Positions 4,874 to 41,202 of a stretch of 56,198 nucleotides of DNA are shown here, one piece after another (position 1 is the first letter of the stretch; every line of letters starts with the position of its first letter). The DNA lies in the IMG/VR virus record IMGVR_UViG_3300009103_000041, positions 1-56,198 of that record; one strand, written 5' to 3'. The DNA comes from a virus. Position numbers and translations under genes: made by a program. Below the pieces are notes generated by a model. The model was not told where the DNA came from, did no database searches, and was given only the letters and a program-made list of their open reading frames with translations.

Positions 4874-5473
4874 TTATTCTCCTGTAATAATATTATAAAT
4901 TTCTTTCCATGTCTTGACTCTTTTAAAATCAACACAATCTTTATTCCAATGGTGGTCCATTAGAATTCCATCAAGTCCAGCAACCTCTCCCATTTCAAGG
5001 TTTGCTACTTTGTCCTCAATCCAAAAACATTCGGTGCCTTCCCATTTAGCAAGGACTTTGTCTTTGTTTTGTCCGGTCTTAAGTATAGTAAATCCATCAA
5101 AAACATCTCCAAAGACATTTCTTAAGTTTTCCTTACGGTACTTTTGAGCGGTTGGGTCATCACTTTGTGAAGTAATAATATGGAATATATATCCATGCTC
5201 CTCATGTAATTTACGGACATATTTAACTGCATCTCGTAATGGAGATAATTTTCTCATCATTTCAGATTCATTAAATTCTTTAATTATTAAAGCGCTATCT
5301 TTCCAAGGAATTTCTAAAGCTTTGGCAACACTGTATATACTTTGCTTTTGCTCTAATCCATGAGTCTCAAGAACCCATTTATAGAAATGGTATTCCCAAT
5401 CTAATAGAACTCCATCGCAATCAGTTAATATAACTTTGTCCCTAACACTTCTTAAAATTTTACTTTCGCGCAT
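4874..5473 (-). CDS. HAD-superfamily phosphatase, 5'-nucleotidase-like
   Basis: 199-aa HAD hydrolase. Motif I is VILTDCDGVLLDW (catalytic Asp pair, residues 18-20), motif II is HIITSQSDD, and the acidic motif III/IV region is CFWIEDKVANL. The layout resembles phage 5'(3')-deoxyribonucleotidases and would remove phosphate from nucleotides, although the substrate is unproven. AGGAG lies 8 bases before the ATG. It overlaps the preceding gene by 14 bp. Confidence 0.75.
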   Translation of the reverse strand: MRESKILRSVRDKVILTDCDGVLLDWEYHFYKWVLETHGLEQKQSIYSVAKALEIPWKDSALIIKEFNESEMMRKLSPLRDAVKYVRKLHEEHGYIFHIITSQSDDPTAQKYRKENLRNVFGDVFDGFTILKTGQNKDKVLAKWEGTECFWIEDKVANLEMGEVAGLDGILMDHHWNKDCVDFKRVKTWKEIYNIITGE

Positions 5474-5696
5474 ATTTACTTCTCCTTGCTAATTCCATAT
5501 CTGCAATATCCATCATATCCCAAGCTTCTTTTGGAAGGTCTTCATATTTACATCCCATGCTTTTTTCTAAATCTGGTTTAATCAATTCGTCTTGGTCTAA
5601 AAAAGGATGGAAACCTTTTGCGTCAAGCCAGAGTCTGCAAGACCTAAGACGAATACCTTCTAAATCATAAATCGTTTTACGTTGTGCCCATCTCAT
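5460..5696 (-). CDS. small hypothetical protein
   Basis: 78 aa, charged, Trp-rich N-terminal half (MRWAQRKTIYDLEGIRLRSCRLWLDAKG). No family recognised. The start has GGAGGCGGGA immediately upstream, and the gene overlaps both neighbours, so it is translationally linked to the nuclease-like gene before it and the HAD gene after it. Confidence 0.6.
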   Translation of the reverse strand: MRWAQRKTIYDLEGIRLRSCRLWLDAKGFHPFLDQDELIKPDLEKSMGCKYEDLPKEAWDMMDIADMELARRSKYARK

Positions 5697-6207
5697 TCCC
5701 GCCTCCTATTTTATTTGTTGGCCAAGTAATTTCATACTCAGCAAATAGCCCAGCATTATATCCATTTATTGTATCAAAATTAACTGGACCAGTTGTGTTT
5801 TTCCAACGGAATGAACCTCCATGTGCATTGTCATCTAATTTGGCTCGTTTAAAAAATACTTTTTCTGGAATGATTGATACTCTTCCATTAAGCATATCAA
5901 CAATAGCTATATAATCACACTTACCCTTTTTAACTAATAAACCACCAACAGAAAAATCACCGGTTTTAGCTGAGCCTGTGGTTTTTACTTCATAGGTTTC
6001 ACCACCCTCACCAATAACATCATAGCCAGGACCATGCCTAATAGAACCATTGGTCATAGTACGAATAATCCTTTCACCATTTGCGGCAATCATATGACGA
6101 ATTATGTCATCATTTTTAGACATATTATTTTCATCATTATTATTAATATAATAATTAGCTTGGTCTCTGAGTTGAGCCTCAGTTAAGCTTGTTAATACTG
6201 AGGTCAT
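5677..6207 (-). CDS. possible PD-(D/E)XK nuclease-like protein
   Basis: Chosen start is the ATG at 6207 (AAGGA upstream, ATGA overlap with the micro-ORF before it), giving 176 aa; a longer form from 6243 lacks a ribosome site. The central segment GYDVIGEGGETYEVKTTG has the Asp...Glu-x-Lys pattern of restriction-like nucleases, followed by a KCDYIAIVDM strand and an internal positively charged region. Nuclease activity is inferred from this motif alone; the target is unknown. Confidence 0.55.
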   Translation of the reverse strand: MTSVLTSLTEAQLRDQANYYINNNDENNMSKNDDIIRHMIAANGERIIRTMTNGSIRHGPGYDVIGEGGETYEVKTTGSAKTGDFSVGGLLVKKGKCDYIAIVDMLNGRVSIIPEKVFFKRAKLDDNAHGGSFRWKNTTGPVNFDTINGYNAGLFAEYEITWPTNKIGGGNEMGTT

Positions 6208-6290
6208 GAAAGAATCCTTAATATTGCCCAACTCCAAACCCATGCATTAATGATTACTAATGCGACTACAAATAAATTTTCAATTGTCAT
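6204..6290 (-). CDS. 28-aa membrane micro-protein
   Basis: ATG at 6290 with GGAGG 6 bases upstream. The peptide (MTIENLFVVALVIINAWVWS...) is one hydrophobic segment of about 20 residues with a short polar tail. Its stop overlaps the next start (ATGA), and its own start overlaps the stop of the preceding micro-ORF (TAATG), so three genes are translationally chained. The ribosome sites and overlaps make chance unlikely. Function unknown. Confidence 0.65.
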   Translation of the reverse strand: MTIENLFVVALVIINAWVWSWAILRILS

Positions 6291-8881: not shown

Positions 8882-9735
8882 AACTCCCCTGCATTTTCAA
8901 TTAATAATTTCATATTATTCTCTATTAAATAAGTTAAGATATTACTACGTTTTGGATATTTATAATTTTCATATTGATTAATAGCATTCTCTTTAATATA
9001 CGAAGGGGTTCTATCTAGGTCAATCATTTCTCTATTACGAATATAATTTCTAAATACTTCTGGTGGCATAACCTCTTTAAGCTTATCACGATTGTTCCAC
9101 CATTCTTCTATTTTCTTTTTAGTCATGGGACTTTGCCTAATCTTATCAACTAAGCAAGTGTCAGAAGATAACACGTTTGGAACACCGTCACCACTATCAC
9201 CTTTTAAGAGATGTTCAAATAAATACCTTATTGGATTAGGGTCCTTTACCATCTTATTAAACATAGGTGACCATTGAATCACATTACCATGTTTTTGTAA
9301 TTGAATAAAATCTTTGTCTGCTGATATAATAACTACATCCTCACCAATAAGAGGTATGGATTTATGTACAGTTAAAGCTCCAATGATATCATCAGCCTCA
9401 GCTCCAAATACATTGATAACAGCATAAGGAAAATTATTACTAATATCATCTAATGTTGAATCAATTAAGTCAAATATTTTTGGCCAATCATGCTTATCTG
9501 TTTCTCGGGTGGAAGTCCTATTTGCTTTATATGGTGGGAATGTATCTTTACGCCAAGACCTCTCATCAGTACATATTACTATTTTGCCATACTTACCTTC
9601 AGAATATTTTTTCCTATATAACCTAAGGTTATTCAAAATAATATGTTTAACTAAATTTTCAGAGAGTCCTTCACCTCTATTTAAAGAACCCATTATACTA
9701 CCAATTGCTAAACCATTAAAATCTACTAATACCAT
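8878..9735 (-). CDS. rnh: RNase H / 5'-3' flap nuclease
   Basis: T4 RNase H homologue of the FEN-1/5'-3' exonuclease family; it removes RNA primers from lagging-strand fragments. Metal-site motifs are visible: LVDFNGLAI (N-terminal Asp), CTDERSWRKDTFPPYKANR, GAEADDIIG, SADKDFIQL and KGDSGDGVPN. At 285 aa it is close to T4 Rnh (305). It has its own early-type promoter directly upstream. In T4 rnh lies beside the gp33-gp59-gp32 genes; here it has moved about 7 kb away. Confidence 0.9.
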   Translation of the reverse strand: MVLVDFNGLAIGSIMGSLNRGEGLSENLVKHIILNNLRLYRKKYSEGKYGKIVICTDERSWRKDTFPPYKANRTSTRETDKHDWPKIFDLIDSTLDDISNNFPYAVINVFGAEADDIIGALTVHKSIPLIGEDVVIISADKDFIQLQKHGNVIQWSPMFNKMVKDPNPIRYLFEHLLKGDSGDGVPNVLSSDTCLVDKIRQSPMTKKKIEEWWNNRDKLKEVMPPEVFRNYIRNREMIDLDRTPSYIKENAINQYENYKYPKRSNILTYLIENNMKLLIENAGEF

Positions 9736-9742
9736 AATCTAT

Positions 9743-9774
9743 ATTATATCATAGTTTACTGCTTTTGTACATAG
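9743..9774 (-). promoter_or_regulatory. early-type promoter for rnh
   Basis: TGTACA (9766-9771) and TATAAT (9743-9748), 17 bp apart, in CTATGTACAA and TATGATATAATATA. The same CTATGTACAA variant occurs at 31572-31603. Confidence 0.65.
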
Positions 9775-10211
9775 TCTTCTGATAAATTTTTCACTGAACC
9801 ATATCCAATCTTAATAGCTATAATACCATTATAATTTTGTGGATTCAATAGAACATCCTCATCAAATTGTATTTTAGCTTCCATATAATTTGTCTCACCA
9901 CGTGTTTTGCATAAACAAATAATCTCACGTTTAAAATTTTCTTTGCCTAAGCCTTCTATATCCTCAGTGAGTCTCTTACTTGAACCCCAATAATCCTGCC
10001 AATCGGTCTCTTTAGCCTTATGCCTTTTATTTTTTCTACCTACGAGGGGTTTAAGCTTTCGTATTGTCCTGAAATACTTACGTCCGATGTAGTCATATCC
10101 GGTGACCAAGTTGGTAATGCGATACACAAAACCATAAAAGTCAGCAATATCAGCAGAAGTAAATTGTCGTTCATTATACGTCCAACTGGGGTCCGTCATA
10201 TTCTTCTGCAT
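9756..10211 (-). CDS. GIY-YIG nuclease-like protein
   Basis: The ATG at 10211 is preceded by AGGAGG with 5-base spacing and gives 151 aa. The first half reads YGFVYRITNLVTGYDYIGRKYF, a GIY-YIG pattern (here GFV...YIG), followed by an Arg/Lys-rich helix, WQDYWGSSK, and a later Glu in NYMEAKIQFDEDVL, where the family has its metal-binding Glu. It could be a free-standing nuclease related to homing endonucleases; it is not inside an intron here. Moderate certainty. Confidence 0.65.
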   Translation of the reverse strand: MQKNMTDPSWTYNERQFTSADIADFYGFVYRITNLVTGYDYIGRKYFRTIRKLKPLVGRKNKRHKAKETDWQDYWGSSKRLTEDIEGLGKENFKREIICLCKTRGETNYMEAKIQFDEDVLLNPQNYNGIIAIKIGYGSVKNLSEDYVQKQ

Positions 10212-10362
10212 CAAAGCCTCCTCTTTGCGCCCATTCTATATTTGCTCCACAAAATGGACAGTGAGTAGCTGGTGTATCCAACTCAATTGACTCAGTAGCA
10301 AATCCCATCTCATCCTTAACCATAACCTCAAAGGGTTGGCTATTACAATCATTACATATCAT
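10174..10362 (-). CDS. zinc-ribbon protein
   Basis: 62 aa with two Cys pairs, MICNDCNSQ and HCPFCGANIEW, forming a probable zinc ribbon, and an acidic tail. Its last 38 bases overlap the GIY-YIG gene and supply that gene's ribosome site. Function unknown. Confidence 0.65.
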   Translation of the reverse strand: MICNDCNSQPFEVMVKDEMGFATESIELDTPATHCPFCGANIEWAQRGGFDAEEYDGPQLDV

Positions 10363-10601
10363 AATCTTAATTCTCCTAATTGCATATGTGTCATTAACAT
10401 ATCATGACCACCTATATATTTTCCATCAATATATATCTGAGGAAATGTTCTGGCGTTTGGAACCGCTTTAAAAAAATCTTCTGGTGTCCAATTAGGTCCT
10501 TCAATATTTCTTTCCTCATAACTAATTTTTTTACTATCTAATAATGCCTTTGCTTTGGTACAAAGACTACAATTATTTTTACTCCATACTACTGCTCTCA
10601 T
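10359..10601 (-). CDS. glutaredoxin
   Basis: 80-aa glutaredoxin with the redox motif CSLC (residues 11-14), the TFPQIYIDGKYIGGHDM block (cis-Pro and glutathione-binding GG), and normal length. It overlaps NrdB by 4 bp, so its natural role is as hydrogen donor for the phage ribonucleotide reductase, as with T4 NrdC. The nearby IscA-like gene leaves a Fe-S role possible as well. Confidence 0.88.
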   Translation of the reverse strand: MRAVVWSKNNCSLCTKAKALLDSKKISYEERNIEGPNWTPEDFFKAVPNARTFPQIYIDGKYIGGHDMLMTHMQLGELRL

Positions 10602-28645: not shown

Positions 28646-29193
28646 GGGTCTCCTAATAACCACATTACTAATGAATATCTAGTACCCTTTGTTACTGTAT
28701 CCACTTTGTGCCACATATCAGATGGGAATACACAAATGGAACCTTGATGTGTTATTTTTTTATTTTGTATAGGTGTAGTTATACCATATTTTTCTTCAGG
28801 GTCGAAGTACATAGCGCCACCTTCATATCCATCATTTAAATTTACAGTAACACTTAACTTTCTTATTTTACCATCTATTGGTCTGGAAAACGTATCCCTA
28901 TGCCAATTATAAAATTGACCTTTACCATATTTTGTAAACTGAAGTTGTGGTACTGGTTCCCATTGAAAATTCCATTCAGCTTGTTTATTTGCTAAATTGA
29001 CATAAGGATTTATTATACCTATAATCCATTGGTCATATAACCAAGTTATTTCTGAATCTCTATTAATGCTAACATTACCAGTACCAGTTTTTGCTTTCAT
29101 TGATTTTTGTGCTAAACCATGTTCAATTATTTTATCACATGTCTCTTTAGAAAAAGCTTTATCAAATGTCCAAGCCATATTTTTTACTCTCAT
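28636..29193 (-). CDS. 2-oxoglutarate/Fe(II)-dependent oxygenase
   Basis: 185 aa. The Fe site is YNWHRDTF (His-x-Asp) with a distal His in 'MWHKVDTVTKGTRYSLVMW', and the following Arg binds 2-oxoglutarate. The double-stranded beta-helix pattern is of the PKHD/prolyl-hydroxylase type common in marine T4-like phages. Start at 29193 overlaps the glucosyltransferase stop (ATGA); an ATG at 29178 is also possible. Substrate unknown: protein hydroxylation is usual, but its place in the DNA-modification operon leaves a base modification open. Confidence 0.85.
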   Translation of the reverse strand: MRVKNMAWTFDKAFSKETCDKIIEHGLAQKSMKAKTGTGNVSINRDSEITWLYDQWIIGIINPYVNLANKQAEWNFQWEPVPQLQFTKYGKGQFYNWHRDTFSRPIDGKIRKLSVTVNLNDGYEGGAMYFDPEEKYGITTPIQNKKITHQGSICVFPSDMWHKVDTVTKGTRYSLVMWLLGDPWI

Positions 29194-30560
29194 GCAAAAA
29201 AGTCCTCTAAGGAAATTTGGCCATCATCTTTTAATTCTTGTTTTGATTTATATACTATTCTTTTTTTCTTTTCAAAATAACTTATGGTTTGATTCATAAC
29301 TTCTTTTGCACCCAACGCTGGTATATGATTTTCCATTACATAATTAAAATGTTCTTTTACATCTGTCTTATAAACATTATCTAGGAAAGTATCATGGTCC
29401 CACTTATTTGTTTGCTTACCAACCTTAGTTATATGTTCTAGCATTGGTGGTATTATATTAGAAGCATCAGTTTCTGTTTTAAGAAATTCTATGCCAGCAT
29501 CTAAATATCTATTATAGGCACCTTCATCTTTTGAAATTCTATGTATTTGCTCTTTAGTATTTTCTAAATCATTTCTATCAGACCAAATAGCTATATCATG
29601 GTCAGAGAATGCTTTACCATTTTCAGCCTTATTATATAATCCATAGTCAATATCAAATATTGGAACTGTCCCTACAGCAATTATTTCCATTTGAGCATAT
29701 TCAAATCTATCACCATAGTTATGTCTTTCTTTTGGTAAAGCATAACCACTATATCCAAACATACTATTAGCTATAAGGTTCATACCCTCTTGATATTCAT
29801 AAGGACCAAATGATTCCATTAGTTCTCTACCAGCATAATAAGTATATCCATTAAACTTTGCTTGATATTCTGTTCTATCTATAATATCAAACTTAGCTCC
29901 AATAGACCTTTCAATTCCATGAATCGCATAATGAAAATCTTTATCCATTTCCCAAAGGTCAATTAATCTACTTGGGTGTTTCATTGAAGTCCAACGACTT
30001 GCGTATATACAAGATTTATTTTTGTCCTTAAATGGTATTCTATATTTTTCATAATCAGAAACTGTTATAGGTAATTTCATTCTTGCTATTCTTTCACCAA
30101 GCTTTTTATTGGTTAAAATACCAGCCATGTCCTGTGAGTATGTGGTTTCTGTAGAGAAATTAAATATTATATCAGCAGCATTAGATATTGCTAAGTGAAT
30201 TGGTATTCTGTCATAGTTCATTCTTTTAATCTCATGCATCATACTAACCAATATAGGTTTCTTTATTTGTAGAACTAAATCATAATAGAAACTCTTAATG
30301 GTTTCTCTTTTATGCATGGGACTTGGATAACTATTTAATATTACAATATCATAATTGTCATTTAATCTCTTTGCAATATCTAGCATCTCACTAGGTTTAA
30401 AAGAAATTGATTCTTTAATATGGCCACCCGACCTAACAAAATTTCTTTCAGCTAAATTAAATATATCAATATTGTCTGGGTCATAGCGTTTCCACTCATA
30501 ACCATATTTCTCAACTCCACAGCCATCAAGGCCTTTTCCAAATACTATTGCTATTTTCAT
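29190..30560 (-). CDS. DNA alpha-glucosyltransferase homologue (T4 AGT-like)
   Basis: 456 aa. The N-terminus IAIVFGKGLDGCGVEKYGYE matches T4 alpha-glucosyltransferase (CIFMARGLEGCGVTKFSLE), followed by the nucleotide-sugar domain of a GT-B fold with 'ERHNYGDRFEYAQMEIIAVGTVPIFD', which aligns with T4 'LQRSLEYTHLELGACGTIPVFW'. T4 AGT moves glucose from UDP-glucose to 5-hydroxymethylcytosine. It follows dCMP hydroxymethylase by an ATGA overlap. It is about 56 aa longer than T4 AGT, with a C-terminal extension ending ISLEDFFA, the same type of C-terminus (clamp-binding-like) as gp43 (TISLESFFV). Confidence 0.85.
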   Translation of the reverse strand: MKIAIVFGKGLDGCGVEKYGYEWKRYDPDNIDIFNLAERNFVRSGGHIKESISFKPSEMLDIAKRLNDNYDIVILNSYPSPMHKRETIKSFYYDLVLQIKKPILVSMMHEIKRMNYDRIPIHLAISNAADIIFNFSTETTYSQDMAGILTNKKLGERIARMKLPITVSDYEKYRIPFKDKNKSCIYASRWTSMKHPSRLIDLWEMDKDFHYAIHGIERSIGAKFDIIDRTEYQAKFNGYTYYAGRELMESFGPYEYQEGMNLIANSMFGYSGYALPKERHNYGDRFEYAQMEIIAVGTVPIFDIDYGLYNKAENGKAFSDHDIAIWSDRNDLENTKEQIHRISKDEGAYNRYLDAGIEFLKTETDASNIIPPMLEHITKVGKQTNKWDHDTFLDNVYKTDVKEHFNYVMENHIPALGAKEVMNQTISYFEKKKRIVYKSKQELKDDGQISLEDFFA

Positions 30561-36819: not shown

Positions 36820-37200
36820 TTACCTGTGTTGTTTTGATTTGTAATCTTTTATTGCCGTTTTAATTGAATCTTCAGCTAAAACTGAGCAATGGATTTTGAC
36901 TGGAGGTAAGTTAAGTTGTTCAACCACCTCTGTATTTTTTATTTGTGTTGCTTCATCAAGGGTCATACCTTTAAGCATTTCTGTTATAATAGAAGAAGAT
37001 GCTATTGCAGAACCACAGCCATAACATTTAAATACTGCATCCTGTATAATATCTTTCTCTACTTTAATTTGTAGCTTCATAACATCACCACAAGAAGGAG
37101 CACCTACCATACCAGTTCCAACATTTTTATCATTAATATCCATCTTACCCACATTGCGTGGATTGTTATAATGGTCTAAAACTGCGCCTGAATATGCCAT
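36820..37200 (-). CDS. iscU: IscU/NifU-type Fe-S scaffold
   Basis: 126 aa, complete. Start YSGAVLDHYNNPRNVG is canonical. The cluster ligands are present: GAPSCGDVM (Cys37 with Asp39), CYGCGSAIASSS (Cys62), and LPPVKIHCSVLAED (His104, Cys105), which also contains the chaperone-recognition motif LPPVK. It builds and hands over [2Fe-2S] clusters, normally fed by a cysteine desulfurase. None is encoded in this window, so the host enzyme would be used. The IscA-like gene is at 11681-11992. Confidence 0.94.
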   Translation of the reverse strand: MAYSGAVLDHYNNPRNVGKMDINDKNVGTGMVGAPSCGDVMKLQIKVEKDIIQDAVFKCYGCGSAIASSSIITEMLKGMTLDEATQIKNTEVVEQLNLPPVKIHCSVLAEDSIKTAIKDYKSKQHR

Positions 37201-37219: not shown

Positions 37220-37678
37220 TTACCCAAGCAATAGCTTTTTAGCGTGCTTAGGTAGGTCACCTAAATTGATAGTTTGAGGCTTGTCCTCTTCTGGAATATC
37301 ATTCTCCAAAACAACAACAAGCAATCCATCTATAATGTCAGCTCCAACAACCTTAATTGTGTCGCTTAAAGTAAATGAACGCTCAAACGCCCTTTGAGAA
37401 ATACCACGATGTGTGTAATCTCTCTTATCTGAATCGCTATGTCTGCGACCAGATATAGTTAAAACCCCTTTTTCAAGAGTTAAGTCAATGTCTTCTTTCT
37501 TAAATCCTGCAACAGCGATTTCAATTAAAAAGTGACCGTCATCTCTTTTAACAACATTGTAAGGTGGATACCCTACGCCTCTGGCGGCTTGCATGTTTGT
37601 TTCCGCTAGTGTGTTAAAGAGTGAATCAAATCCCAGGAATGTATCCCTCGGGAAGTTAGTAAATGCTAAGTTTGTCAT
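37220..37678 (-). CDS. hsp20: small heat-shock protein Hsp20
   Basis: 152 aa. The alpha-crystallin domain spans about residues 35-135: PPYNVVKRDDGHFLIEIAVAGFKKEDIDL, ...KGVLTISGR..., 'YTHRGISQRAFERSFTL' and 'IIDGLLVVVLENDIPEE'. IbpA-like, as in most marine T4-like phages. It holds unfolding proteins soluble, perhaps during capsid assembly. The leader has an early and a late promoter and a ROSE-like thermometer over its ribosome site. Confidence 0.95.
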   Translation of the reverse strand: MTNLAFTNFPRDTFLGFDSLFNTLAETNMQAARGVGYPPYNVVKRDDGHFLIEIAVAGFKKEDIDLTLEKGVLTISGRRHSDSDKRDYTHRGISQRAFERSFTLSDTIKVVGADIIDGLLVVVLENDIPEEDKPQTINLGDLPKHAKKLLLG

Positions 37679-37759: not shown

Positions 37760-37767
37760 TATTTATA
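37760..37767 (-). promoter_or_regulatory. T4-type late promoter box for hsp20
   Basis: TATAAATA on the minus strand, 82 bp before the hsp20 start and overlapping the stop of the gene upstream. A transcript from here would contain the whole three-hairpin leader. Confidence 0.65.
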
Positions 37768-38281
37768 CATATATTATATCACAGTTTGGTGTAATTGTAA
37801 ACAGTTTTATTAATTTATTTTGCTCTTTTATTTCTTCCATCATTTGTATATCATCTATATACCATTCATAATTTGGGTATGTTATATTCCAGCCACCTGC
37901 TTCTTGCCACCAATTAAAACATTCATTATTATCTCTAACTACTGCAACAATTTTACTTTCTGGAAATAACTCTACAATATCATTTAAGTAATATGCAAAA
38001 TTATGAGATAGTATTACTTTAGTTTGGTCTTTAGGTCCATTAAAACTTTTGTCGATTTCATCAATCCACATTTGTCTGGTACCAAAAGTAGAGCCTAACC
38101 AATTACCATATTGCATCTTTGGTCCATAGTAATTTCCTTTATGACCAGCATATTTATGATGTTTATATATTCTGTCAGGAGTACAGTCAGTCATATCTGC
38201 ATTATGCTCTTCTCTAATTTTTTGAGAAATACCACTCCACATACTTCCTGGAGCACCTGTTACAAAAATCCAGTTTTTCAC
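37763..38281 (-). CDS. sulfotransferase-like P-loop protein
   Basis: 172 aa from a GTG that overlaps the TctC stop (GTGA). The N-terminus WIFVTGAPGSMWSGISQKI has a P-loop resembling the PAPS-binding loop of sulfotransferases, and 'SKIVAVVRDNNECFNWW' resembles the second PAPS-binding block. No acceptor can be deduced. Its last codons contain the promoter elements of hsp20. Confidence 0.5.
   Translation of the reverse strand: MKNWIFVTGAPGSMWSGISQKIREEHNADMTDCTPDRIYKHHKYAGHKGNYYGPKMQYGNWLGSTFGTRQMWIDEIDKSFNGPKDQTKVILSHNFAYYLNDIVELFPESKIVAVVRDNNECFNWWQEAGGWNITYPNYEWYIDDIQMMEEIKEQNKLIKLFTITPNCDIIYV
37773..37804 (-). promoter_or_regulatory. early-type promoter for hsp20
   Basis: TTTACA (37796-37801), 17 bp, TATAAT (37773-37778) in TGTGATATAATATATG, lying inside the end of the sulfotransferase-like gene. 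Confidence 0.7.
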
Positions 38282-39363
38282 CCTCTTAAATCAACTCCTT
38301 CAAGCGCTGTTGGTACCTCAACTTCTATTACAAAATGGTCTTTAAATATGCTTGCTAATCCTAATGCTTCTGTATTAAAACGAATTAAATTCCTAAGAGC
38401 ATCTTCAGTAATGAATGACATAAGGGTATCTCTATGTGCATTACCTTCATCACCAATCTTCCATTCATATTTACCAACTTTAGCTTCAATAGCAGCTACT
38501 GCGTCTGGGTCTAAACTCATTTGATGTAAAGCATTCCTTAAAGCAAATGTATTTGGATTTCCTTTATTTACCCATAAGGCTTTTTGCATACCATCTCTAA
38601 ATGATTTGACAAGCTTATAAGCATCATAAAATTCTCCGCTTGGTGGTGCATCCCAAAGTTCTTCAAATAAAATTTCTAATTGGAATCCAGGATAGTTAGG
38701 GTCATCAGCATGACTTCCATCTGCTTGCAATATACCATGATGGAACCATATTTCTGCTTTATCATTTGGTTCAACATGTTTTTTATATGCAGCTGGGTTT
38801 TCTCTTGTACCATTTAGTTCACCGCGTTTGAATGCAAGTCTACGTTCACCGCCTGACATTCCATTAACCCAAGTCACATGCTCTTTAAAGCATGCAATAT
38901 AATAATCTATTGATGTAGATTTATTACCACATATTAACATGGTCATAGCAAAAGCTTCGGGAACCATACCCGAACCAGCAGCAAAACTTGGATATGTCAT
39001 ATCTGCTCCAATAGCTTTACCGGCTATAATATTTAAATTCATAAGACCAATTGAGTCATAATCATTATAGTCATAGTCAACATTCTCTTGTAAGAAGCTA
39101 ACTCCATTACCACCATGACTTACCATGACAATCTTATCAGATGTTCTTAAAGAGTTATGGAATTCATTAAAGCCAGGAATATCTCTTGCTCCTGGTATAT
39201 GTTTAATGGTTATATTTTCTCCTAAGAATGGTTCAAGTTGGGTGGCTATAATTTGAGCCCATTGGCTTGTTCCAGCTCCAGGTTTTTGTGGTACAACAAA
39301 GATATAATCTGCAAATACAGATGTTGATAATGTTAAAATTAAAAGTGCTAGTAGTTTTTTCAT
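38278..39363 (-). CDS. tctC: TctC-type periplasmic solute-binding protein
   Basis: 361 aa with a Sec signal peptide (MKKLLALLILTLSTSVFA). The mature start DYIFVVPQKPGAGTSQWAQIIATQLEPFLG matches the TctC/Bug family beginning (P..PGGG.D...R), and the body shows the two-lobe pattern with 'KIVMVSHGGNGVSFL' and 'FKRGELNGTREN'. These proteins capture carboxylates for the TctA permease. Its ATG overlaps the TctA stop (ATGA), so both are made together. Slightly longer than usual (about 320 aa). The ligand cannot be read from sequence. Confidence 0.85.
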   Translation of the reverse strand: MKKLLALLILTLSTSVFADYIFVVPQKPGAGTSQWAQIIATQLEPFLGENITIKHIPGARDIPGFNEFHNSLRTSDKIVMVSHGGNGVSFLQENVDYDYNDYDSIGLMNLNIIAGKAIGADMTYPSFAAGSGMVPEAFAMTMLICGNKSTSIDYYIACFKEHVTWVNGMSGGERRLAFKRGELNGTRENPAAYKKHVEPNDKAEIWFHHGILQADGSHADDPNYPGFQLEILFEELWDAPPSGEFYDAYKLVKSFRDGMQKALWVNKGNPNTFALRNALHQMSLDPDAVAAIEAKVGKYEWKIGDEGNAHRDTLMSFITEDALRNLIRFNTEALGLASIFKDHFVIEVEVPTALEGVDLRG

Positions 39364-40781
39364 GCGTACTCCAATTTGTTTTTCTTTATAGACAATGTTG
39401 CCATTGCTATAATTGTTATAATTAAAATAATAAATATTGGCCTAGTCATAAGAGTATCTATAGTATATAAAGCACTTAATTGTAGGGTCAATGTTTCTAC
39501 TTTTATGGCTAAGATGAATGCCATCAGCAAAGCCGGTCTACTATATTTATATTGCTTGCAAAAGACTCCAAGAGCAGAGCATAATATTAATATAGCATAG
39601 TCCTCCCAACCACCAGTGTATTGAGCACAAGCCCAAGTGATAAACACCACAAGGATTGGGAAATAATATTTATATGGCCAAGAAGATATCTTTGAAATGT
39701 ATCTATTAAACACAATGCATAATATACCTACTAAAACCGTAGCCCACATAAATCCAAATGTGAGACTGTCAAAAAATCTTGTATCATAAGCAAGGTCAGG
39801 CGTTCCTAATTCAAAACCTAATACCATAAATAAAGCCATTAGTACTGCAGCAAAAGAAGCTCCAGGGATTCCAAATAAAACTGTGGGAATCATTGATGTA
39901 GCCTTTTGAGAATTATTAGCTCCTTCCGAACCTATAACACCTCTTATATTTCCTTTACCAAATTCTTCATTAGGATTGGCAGCAACGGCTGAACCATACG
40001 CCATCCAATCTCCCATAGCACCACCAAGTCCTGGAAGGAAACCAATAAAGGCTCCTATTGCTCCACCTCTTATTGAATCCCATTTATATTTCCATGCGGC
40101 TTTAATTCCTTCTAATGTTTGGCCTGATGAATTATGTTTAGTTGTTGTTGCATCTCCTTTTCTCCAACCATCTAATATTTCAGGGAAGGCAAATAGACCA
40201 GCAACCATTGGCATAATTTGAATACCAGCTCCTAGATATTCCCAACCAAATGTCCACCTATCAGCATTTGTCACTGGGTCAGTGCCTATGCTTCCTAAGA
40301 ATAATCCAATTAATATAGCAATCAAGCTTCTAATCCAGAATTTATTAGATACAAATCCAACACAGGCAAGAGCTAACATAACAAAAGCCCACATCTCTGG
40401 GACGCCAAAGACCATCATAAGTTTTGTATACCAAGGGAGTAAGGCAAATGTAAGTGTTCCCCATAGGAGACCATTGACAGTTGAGGTTGTTATTGCAGCC
40501 GTAAGAGCATAGGTTGCTTTACCTTGCTTGGCTAGAGGGTGACCGTCGACCATTGTGGCCGCGGCTGAATTAGCACCTGGGATACCTAATAAGATTCCGG
40601 AGTATGTATCACCTGTGGTAGAGGCTGCTACTACAGCCATACAGAATATAACTCCTAAGTACGGGTCTGAGAAATAAGACATAAAACCAAATAGAACTAC
40701 AAGACCCGTGGTGGCTCCAGCAGCTGGTATCAATCCAATTATAAGCCCATACAATGTGCCTAATAACAATGCTAAAATCAT
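39360..40781 (-). CDS. tctA: TctA-type tripartite tricarboxylate transporter permease
   Basis: 473 aa with about 12 hydrophobic helices and the two TctA signature repeats: GLIPAAGATTGLVV ... TTGDTYSGILLGIPGANSAAATMVDGHPLAKQGKATYAL, and 'GFLPGLGGAMGDWMAYGSAVAANPNEEFGKGNIRGVIGSEGANNSQKA...GIPGASFAAVLMALF'. It imports di/tricarboxylates with TctC. The N-terminus is about 20-30 residues shorter than common TctA. No TctB lies beside it. It follows RegA by 10 bp inside the replication operon. The signatures are intact, so the gene does not look decayed. Confidence 0.93.
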   Translation of the reverse strand: MILALLLGTLYGLIIGLIPAAGATTGLVVLFGFMSYFSDPYLGVIFCMAVVAASTTGDTYSGILLGIPGANSAAATMVDGHPLAKQGKATYALTAAITTSTVNGLLWGTLTFALLPWYTKLMMVFGVPEMWAFVMLALACVGFVSNKFWIRSLIAILIGLFLGSIGTDPVTNADRWTFGWEYLGAGIQIMPMVAGLFAFPEILDGWRKGDATTTKHNSSGQTLEGIKAAWKYKWDSIRGGAIGAFIGFLPGLGGAMGDWMAYGSAVAANPNEEFGKGNIRGVIGSEGANNSQKATSMIPTVLFGIPGASFAAVLMALFMVLGFELGTPDLAYDTRFFDSLTFGFMWATVLVGILCIVFNRYISKISSWPYKYYFPILVVFITWACAQYTGGWEDYAILILCSALGVFCKQYKYSRPALLMAFILAIKVETLTLQLSALYTIDTLMTRPIFIILIITIIAMATLSIKKNKLEYA

Positions 40782-40791
40782 AATCTAATTT

Positions 40792-41202
40792 TTACTTTAT
40801 TCCAATATTATACTTGGGACATAATTCCCAATCCCCTTTTTCCTTGTGTGATATTATTTTAATTTGATTTAATGGAGCTGTATCTCCAATTGGTTTAACA
40901 GTTTCTAATAATCCCCAATCAGACATGAGTGTAACAATTGTATTACGTCTTTGGAGGTCATTCTCTGTTAGGTTAGATGGTTTGCCATCTAATAAGAATA
41001 ACTCTTTAAAGTGAGTTATAAAATACCTACCTTGCTTATGAAGGATATGGCATGATTGAAATAGTTGAGAATCTCTTTTGGACGCTACGCCCATACGTGT
41101 TAATGTTTCTCTGATTTTTAAAAAGTCATCTGGCTCAGCTAGAGTTACTTCCAGCATCATGTCTGGTGTCCAGCTAACTAGATTGTCTTTGTGTTCCGCC
41201 AT
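40792..41202 (-). CDS. regA: RegA translational repressor
   Basis: 136 aa. 'MLEVTLAEPDDFLKIRETLTRMGVASKRDSQLFQSCHILHKQGRYFITHFKELF' aligns with T4 RegA from residue 1, and 'KGDWELCPKYNIGIK' with its end. There is an N-terminal extension of about 15 residues if translation starts at 41202 (AGAGGA upstream); an ATG at 41157 matches the T4 start. It binds early-gene mRNAs at their ribosome sites. Order gp44-(small genes)-gp62-RegA is as in T4. Confidence 0.9.
   Translation of the reverse strand: MAEHKDNLVSWTPDMMLEVTLAEPDDFLKIRETLTRMGVASKRDSQLFQSCHILHKQGRYFITHFKELFLLDGKPSNLTENDLQRRNTIVTLMSDWGLLETVKPIGDTAPLNQIKIISHKEKGDWELCPKYNIGIK

Follow-up and report, generated by a model that had tools for sequence, protein, structure and literature searches.

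The question raised by this locus is whether a T4-like phage that carries a TctA-family permease gene beside a gene for a TctC-like binding protein encodes a working importer and, if so, whether such an importer needs a TctB subunit and which ligand it takes up. The window, meaning the whole stretch of DNA that was analysed, is a virus record of 56,198 bases with 33% G+C, and the contig is of the T4-like phage type. It contains genes for a sliding clamp, the gp44 and gp62 clamp-loader proteins, RegA, DNA polymerase, a primase-like protein, SbcC/SbcD-like proteins and ribonucleotide reductase, and no tRNAs were found in it. The closest DNA polymerase from an isolate belongs to Phage C48C1 (49.8%), the record of which names no host. 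The minus-strand order is gp44, a small ORF, a methyltransferase-like ORF, gp62, regA, tctA, the tctC-like gene, orf172, hsp20, an iscU-like gene, a small ORF and DNA polymerase. The features needed for the argument are as follows.

40792..41202, minus strand: regA translational repressor, upstream flank of the insertion (PF01818, 4.6e-41)
39360..40781, minus strand: tctA, a 473-aa TctA-family permease without the TctB-like C-terminal extension (PF01970, E=9e-96)
39360..39363, minus strand: ATGA stop/start overlap of tctA and the tctC-like gene (junction sequence TACGCATGAAAA)
38278..39363, minus strand: tctC-like gene for a 361-aa secreted solute-binding protein (predicted fold and remote homology)
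37763..38281, minus strand: orf172, 172 aa with a GTG start, possibly sulfotransferase-like, with a GAPGSxWSG loop (Sulfotransfer_3, below cut-off)
37220..37678, minus strand: hsp20, downstream flank of the insertion (PF00011, 1.6e-15)

The sequence-only reading had described a tctA and tctC-like pair at 38278-40781, joined by an ATGA overlap and lying between RegA and Hsp20 among replication genes. Both ORFs are on the minus strand and the span is exact, the junction sequence agrees, and RegA, gp62-type, gp44-type, sliding clamp, Hsp20, NifU/IscU-like and DNA polymerase proteins were identified in the neighbourhood. The start of tctA lies 10 nt past regA. A third gene, orf172, was absent from the earlier span; it is coupled to the tctC-like gene by a 4-nt GTGA overlap and also precedes hsp20. 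Because the pair sits in the replication gene cluster, it is probably expressed together with the replication genes. The T4-type late promoter TATAAATA occurs at 15 sites in the window, where chance alone would give 16.8, and for that reason no claim about timing is drawn from it. The NifU/IscU-like iron-sulfur scaffold gene (36820-37200; PF01592, 1e-48) adjoins hsp20 and the replication cluster and is kept in close relatives. Positions 29190-30560 of the window resemble a PHROG family named alpha-glucosyltransferase (1.3e-70), and glucosylation of DNA or of the surface is possible.

In one related viral locus (L182, RegA 84% identical) hsp20 follows about 106 nt after regA, and tctA, tctC and orf172 are all missing. 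Since this site is empty, the three coupled genes can be regarded as an optional cassette at the regA-hsp20 site. None of the other regA loci in the same set with at least 1.5 kb downstream has a tctA gene, and the regA-hsp20 interval of Phage C48C1 holds two small hypothetical genes.

The permease matches the TctA family profile PF01970 with 321.5 bits (cut-off 28.9), residues 2-419 aligning to profile positions 1-422. The hallmark of the TctA family is a duplicated G-Hy3-G-Hy3-G-Hy2-P-G-Hy-G motif, located in TM1 and TM7 (PMC5812351). The TM7 signature, G-x3-G-x3-G-x2-P-G-x-G, is complete in the window protein and in 55 of 56 viral copies. In TM1, P-A replaces P-G and the rest is complete; among the 56 viral copies this position is A, S or G. 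The earlier description of a full-length TctA with both signature repeats thus holds for the length and for TM7, while TM1 is altered at one glycine (Ala). Searching the PDB with a TctA profile gave no credible relative, and the predicted TctA structure was poor (pLDDT 65) and was left unused.

For the TctC-like protein of the window no match was obtained in Pfam, NCBIfam or PHROGs, and PF03401 (TctC/Bug) matched neither it nor any of 24 family members. Its signal peptide spans about residues 1-18 (MKKLLALLILTLSTSVFA), with the mature protein starting at D19 as read from the alignment; the peptide has a basic start and a hydrophobic stretch, and the Ala at -1 is invariant in 68 of 68 viral copies. 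The AlphaFold2 model has a pLDDT of 87, and all Foldseek hits at ranks 1-17 are binding proteins of the tripartite tricarboxylate transporter (TTT) type. Alignment of the model with VIA-align to 11 TTT entries gave Z scores of 17.7-20.8 over 260-274 aligned residues (rmsd 3.3-4.3) and a two-domain type II fold, the next family, a phosphonate-type binding protein, following at Z 12.5. A profile of 24 viral copies touched BugD (E=0.016) and MatC (E=0.32), both in the N-terminal part, and a profile from viral copies recovered TctC-like proteins from Pelagibacterales and gammaproteobacteria (about 1e-18 to 1e-23). BLASTP of the window protein against a SAR11 TctC-like protein gave 25% identity over 333 columns (E=2e-14), and a gammaproteobacterial relative is itself similar to BugE, Bug27 and MatC. 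Because of this fold and this homology to cellular TctC-like proteins, the protein is a divergent relative of the TctC/Bug family and no PF03401 member. The earlier call of a TctC-like protein with a signal peptide was therefore right by fold and remote homology, with no support from Pfam.

A loop motif, P-F-X-A-G-G-X-X-D, is described as almost ubiquitous in TctC/Bug proteins, some Bug proteins carrying hydroxyl residues in place of motif residues (PMC5812351). The viral loop reads P-Q-K-P-G-x-G-T-S/T, with the aromatic docking residue F changed to Q and D changed to S/T in 68 of 68 copies. R187, E188 and N189 are invariant in the viral copies. With the loop changed in this way, homology does not tell which ligand is bound, and citrate should not be assumed. 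The import of citrate or related carboxylates, which the earlier reading took over from the known TctABC systems, is thus not established, and the loop sequence suggests that the ligand or the binding mode may differ from those of the TTT family.

Single-protein scans of viral contigs returned 42 tctA and 99 tctC relatives, and an alignment-based scan returned at least 286 confirmed viral stretches. Contigs carrying relatives reach 328 kb, and several of the larger ones contain the T4-type prohead protease (PF03420), which served as the phage marker in one genome search. The 328,292-base viral contig L306, with a T4-type prohead protease, carries a tctC-like gene. tctA lies near tctC in 144 loci and within 60 nt of it in 125, counts that include overlapping loci from the same contig. 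Ten tctC loci have no tctA nearby; in nine of these tctC is at the contig edge, L096 being the sole exception, and TctA and TctC are linked almost wherever the contig permits. Apart from the regA-hsp20 site, the pair is found beside methyltransferase-like and orf172-like genes. No tctC relative was found in the named-phage genome collection, and TctA matches there were rejected as members of the clade described below, being 27-30% identical and outside it.

In the trees the viral TctA copies form one group (support 100/100), the stem of which is about 3 changes per column long, and the viral TctC copies likewise form one group (100/99). Inside the viral group are two apparently bacterial loci, L111 (a bin of marine bacterium B5-7) and L113 (an Omnitrophota bin, with a TctA 58% identical to that of the window); their neighbours look cellular, and neither genome has the T4 prohead protease. 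With the phage-type pair in two bacterial bins, transfer between viruses and bacteria is possible. The gene content of L112, from a Pelagibacter bin, looks like that of a phage contig, and the bin holds a prohead protease. In a sample of more than 1,000 bacterial genomes, no further one reaches the clade score. Judged from these trees, the pair is a deep clade that occurs almost only in marine viruses and is rare in bacteria, and it is no recent acquisition from SAR11. The comparison with SAR11 that the sequence-only reading had proposed thus leads to a mainly viral clade on a long branch, and not to a close copy of SAR11 genes.

Against nine relatives, tctA gave dN/dS values of 0.07-0.12, and most of those for tctC lay at 0.15-0.34; a single tctC value was 0.58, where dS was very low. 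Purifying selection acts on both genes, and of the two tctC changes faster. There was no interior truncation among 86 tctA and 95 tctC loci. Frameshifts in related phages and a tree leaving the TctA/TctC families had been named beforehand as findings that would count against the proposal; no frameshifts were seen, and the trees stay inside both families. TctA and TctC distances correlate (r=0.67, 780 pairs), as expected for any linked genes, and the value is not used as evidence of co-evolution. That host genes were picked up recently and by chance, without selection for any function, would fit the empty site, which marks the module as mobile, and the codon use of tctA, which differs somewhat from that of the phage core (cosine 0.83; gp44, 0.97). 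This view is contradicted by the deep viral clade with its long stem, the low dN/dS, the lack of decay and the hundreds of copies, and we give it hardly any credence.

Phages use membrane and periplasmic proteins for exclusion. The pair could likewise serve superinfection exclusion, by blocking or remodelling a receptor on the host surface or its import system, and take up nothing of use; the altered binding-loop signature would agree with this. Such interference nevertheless seems quite improbable: the two genes stay together and undamaged, conservation is stronger in the permease than in the binding protein, the loop glycines are conserved, the binding fold has both of its domains in full, and a decoy would need no full 473-aa permease.

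In agreement with the earlier statement, no TctB was detected in the window, between tctA and tctC in relatives or, by PF07331 at E<=1, in 20 viral records. The sensitivity of this profile is low, however: the C-terminal tail of a SAR11 TctA escaped it, and a gammaproteobacterial fusion stayed under its cut-off. No small 4-TM gene accompanies the viral pair. The tctA-tctC gaps of relatives, considered as a hiding place for TctB, hold a 230-250-aa soluble protein, a methyltransferase-like protein or small ORFs, and no 4-TM protein. The two apparently bacterial clade members also lack TctB at their loci, and its absence looks like a feature of the whole clade. For that reason, of the two options that the sequence-only reading had left side by side, dispensability of TctB is more likely than completion of the complex by a host TctB.

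That the phage TctA and TctC-like proteins need a resident TctB, recruited into a tripartite importer, is accordingly held to be unlikely, although there are arguments for it. Both membrane subunits were essential in Comamonas TpiBA, the one TTT system where this was tested, as cited in PMC5812351. Many sampled Pelagibacterales genomes encode TctA-family transporters, some beside a separate 4-5-TM gene in the TctB position, so that a SAR11-like host might offer a partner. However, the nearest relatives outside the clade, SAR11 and gammaproteobacterial systems, have a TctA of about 650-670 aa that carries TctB-like sequence as a tail, with no free subunit (the window TctA is 35% identical to one SAR11 TctA). 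In addition, the Omnitrophota genome with a clade member, a metagenome bin, has no PF07331 match.

The nearest cellular systems are flanked by PrpF, aconitase or ComA genes. In the SAR11 locus L177 two ComA-family (phosphosulfolactate synthase) genes, at 5431-6225 and 9500-10363, flank a TctC-like and long-TctA system, which is a clue to an organosulfur substrate there. TTT systems for sulfolactate are named in PMC5812351. The product of orf172 scored 0.0059 against Pfam Sulfotransfer_3, below the cut-off, with a relative scoring 1.3e-4. Together these observations would allow the ligand to be an organosulfur compound (a sulfonate or sulfated acid) and not a plain carboxylate, tied to the sulfotransferase-like gene, which would be compatible with a two-component importer. 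We nevertheless doubt this choice of ligand: the other nearest cellular systems have PrpF genes as neighbours, one of them aconitase as well, and so suggest tricarboxylates, the orf172-family profile found no relative in the PDB, and the gene is missing from some relatives, such as L012 and L013, that keep tctA and tctC.

Many viral loci, and one apparently bacterial locus, have a relative of orf172 close to tctA/tctC. The family has an invariant GAPGSxWS loop (the window gene; L111, 9093-9695; L112, 2877-3467), and the last residues of the window copy reach the region just upstream of hsp20. Often between or beside tctA and tctC is the 230-250-aa family, in which HxD and a later His are conserved (L028, 9431-10135; L029, 9431-10174; L109, 7276-7992). 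Its identity as a 2-oxoglutarate/iron oxygenase, suggested by eye, found no support from Pfam, PHROGs or the PDB.

We therefore favour, at a probability of roughly 0.7, the reading that the locus is an auxiliary metabolic module, namely a two-component, TctB-less, TTT-related importer of an organic anion that is expressed with the replication genes and feeds the infected cell. The idea of a working importer is supported by homology, predicted fold, co-inheritance and purifying selection. The TctC-like protein would be exported to the periplasm, capture a small organic anion and hand it to TctA with no use of TctB. TctA would then move the anion across the inner membrane on an ion gradient, an energy source suggested by what is known of the family. 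The presumed benefit is an enlarged carbon (or sulfur) supply of the infected cell while phage DNA is made. The conservation of the pair among hundreds of viral sequences, together with its rarity in bacteria, suggests that viruses boost the organic-acid uptake of infected cells. A broader and more tentative view, to which we give somewhat less than even odds, is that of a virus-dominated lineage of two-subunit, binding-protein-dependent secondary importers with their own ligand specificity, widely used by marine T4-like phages to feed replication. If the module works as proposed, phages carry a whole importer, beyond a binding protein for a host importer, and this would be common to hundreds of viral sequences. 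Carbon or sulfur uptake of infected cells would then be a virus-controlled step in the ocean, and the module would be a natural test of the TctB requirement in the TTT family.

The phage pair resembles the TTT systems (TctCBA, including Salmonella TctC, Bordetella Bug27/BugD, Rhodopseudomonas MatC/AdpC and TphC) in that a TctA-family permease and a periplasmic protein of the type II TctC fold are encoded by adjacent, co-oriented genes. It differs from them in that TctB was not detected, the binding loop is changed (F to Q and D to S/T), the order is A-C, and the genes lie inside a phage replication cluster. The closest ordinary cellular relatives of both proteins are the SAR11/gammaproteobacterial systems L156, L161, L163, L179 and L181, near PrpF, aconitase or ComA genes; their TctA has extra C-terminal helices, and a long branch sets the clade of the phage proteins apart from them. 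A TctA domain match on marine viral contigs was likewise reported by Roux et al. 2014 (PMC4164917) for SUP05 viral contigs found by non-reference methods, in a passage that calls its role unknown and mentions no TctC partner. No further mention of such a domain in viral contigs was found in a search of open-licence papers. Bug/TTT-domain proteins of uncultured Caudovirales (BFVD A0A6J5T247, A0A6J5L7K0) have the TctC fold too, at about 11-15% identity to the window protein. Phage-carried PstS is a solute-binding protein that feeds the infected cell through a host ABC importer. A binding protein would feed the cell in both cases, but here the phage supplies the permease as well.
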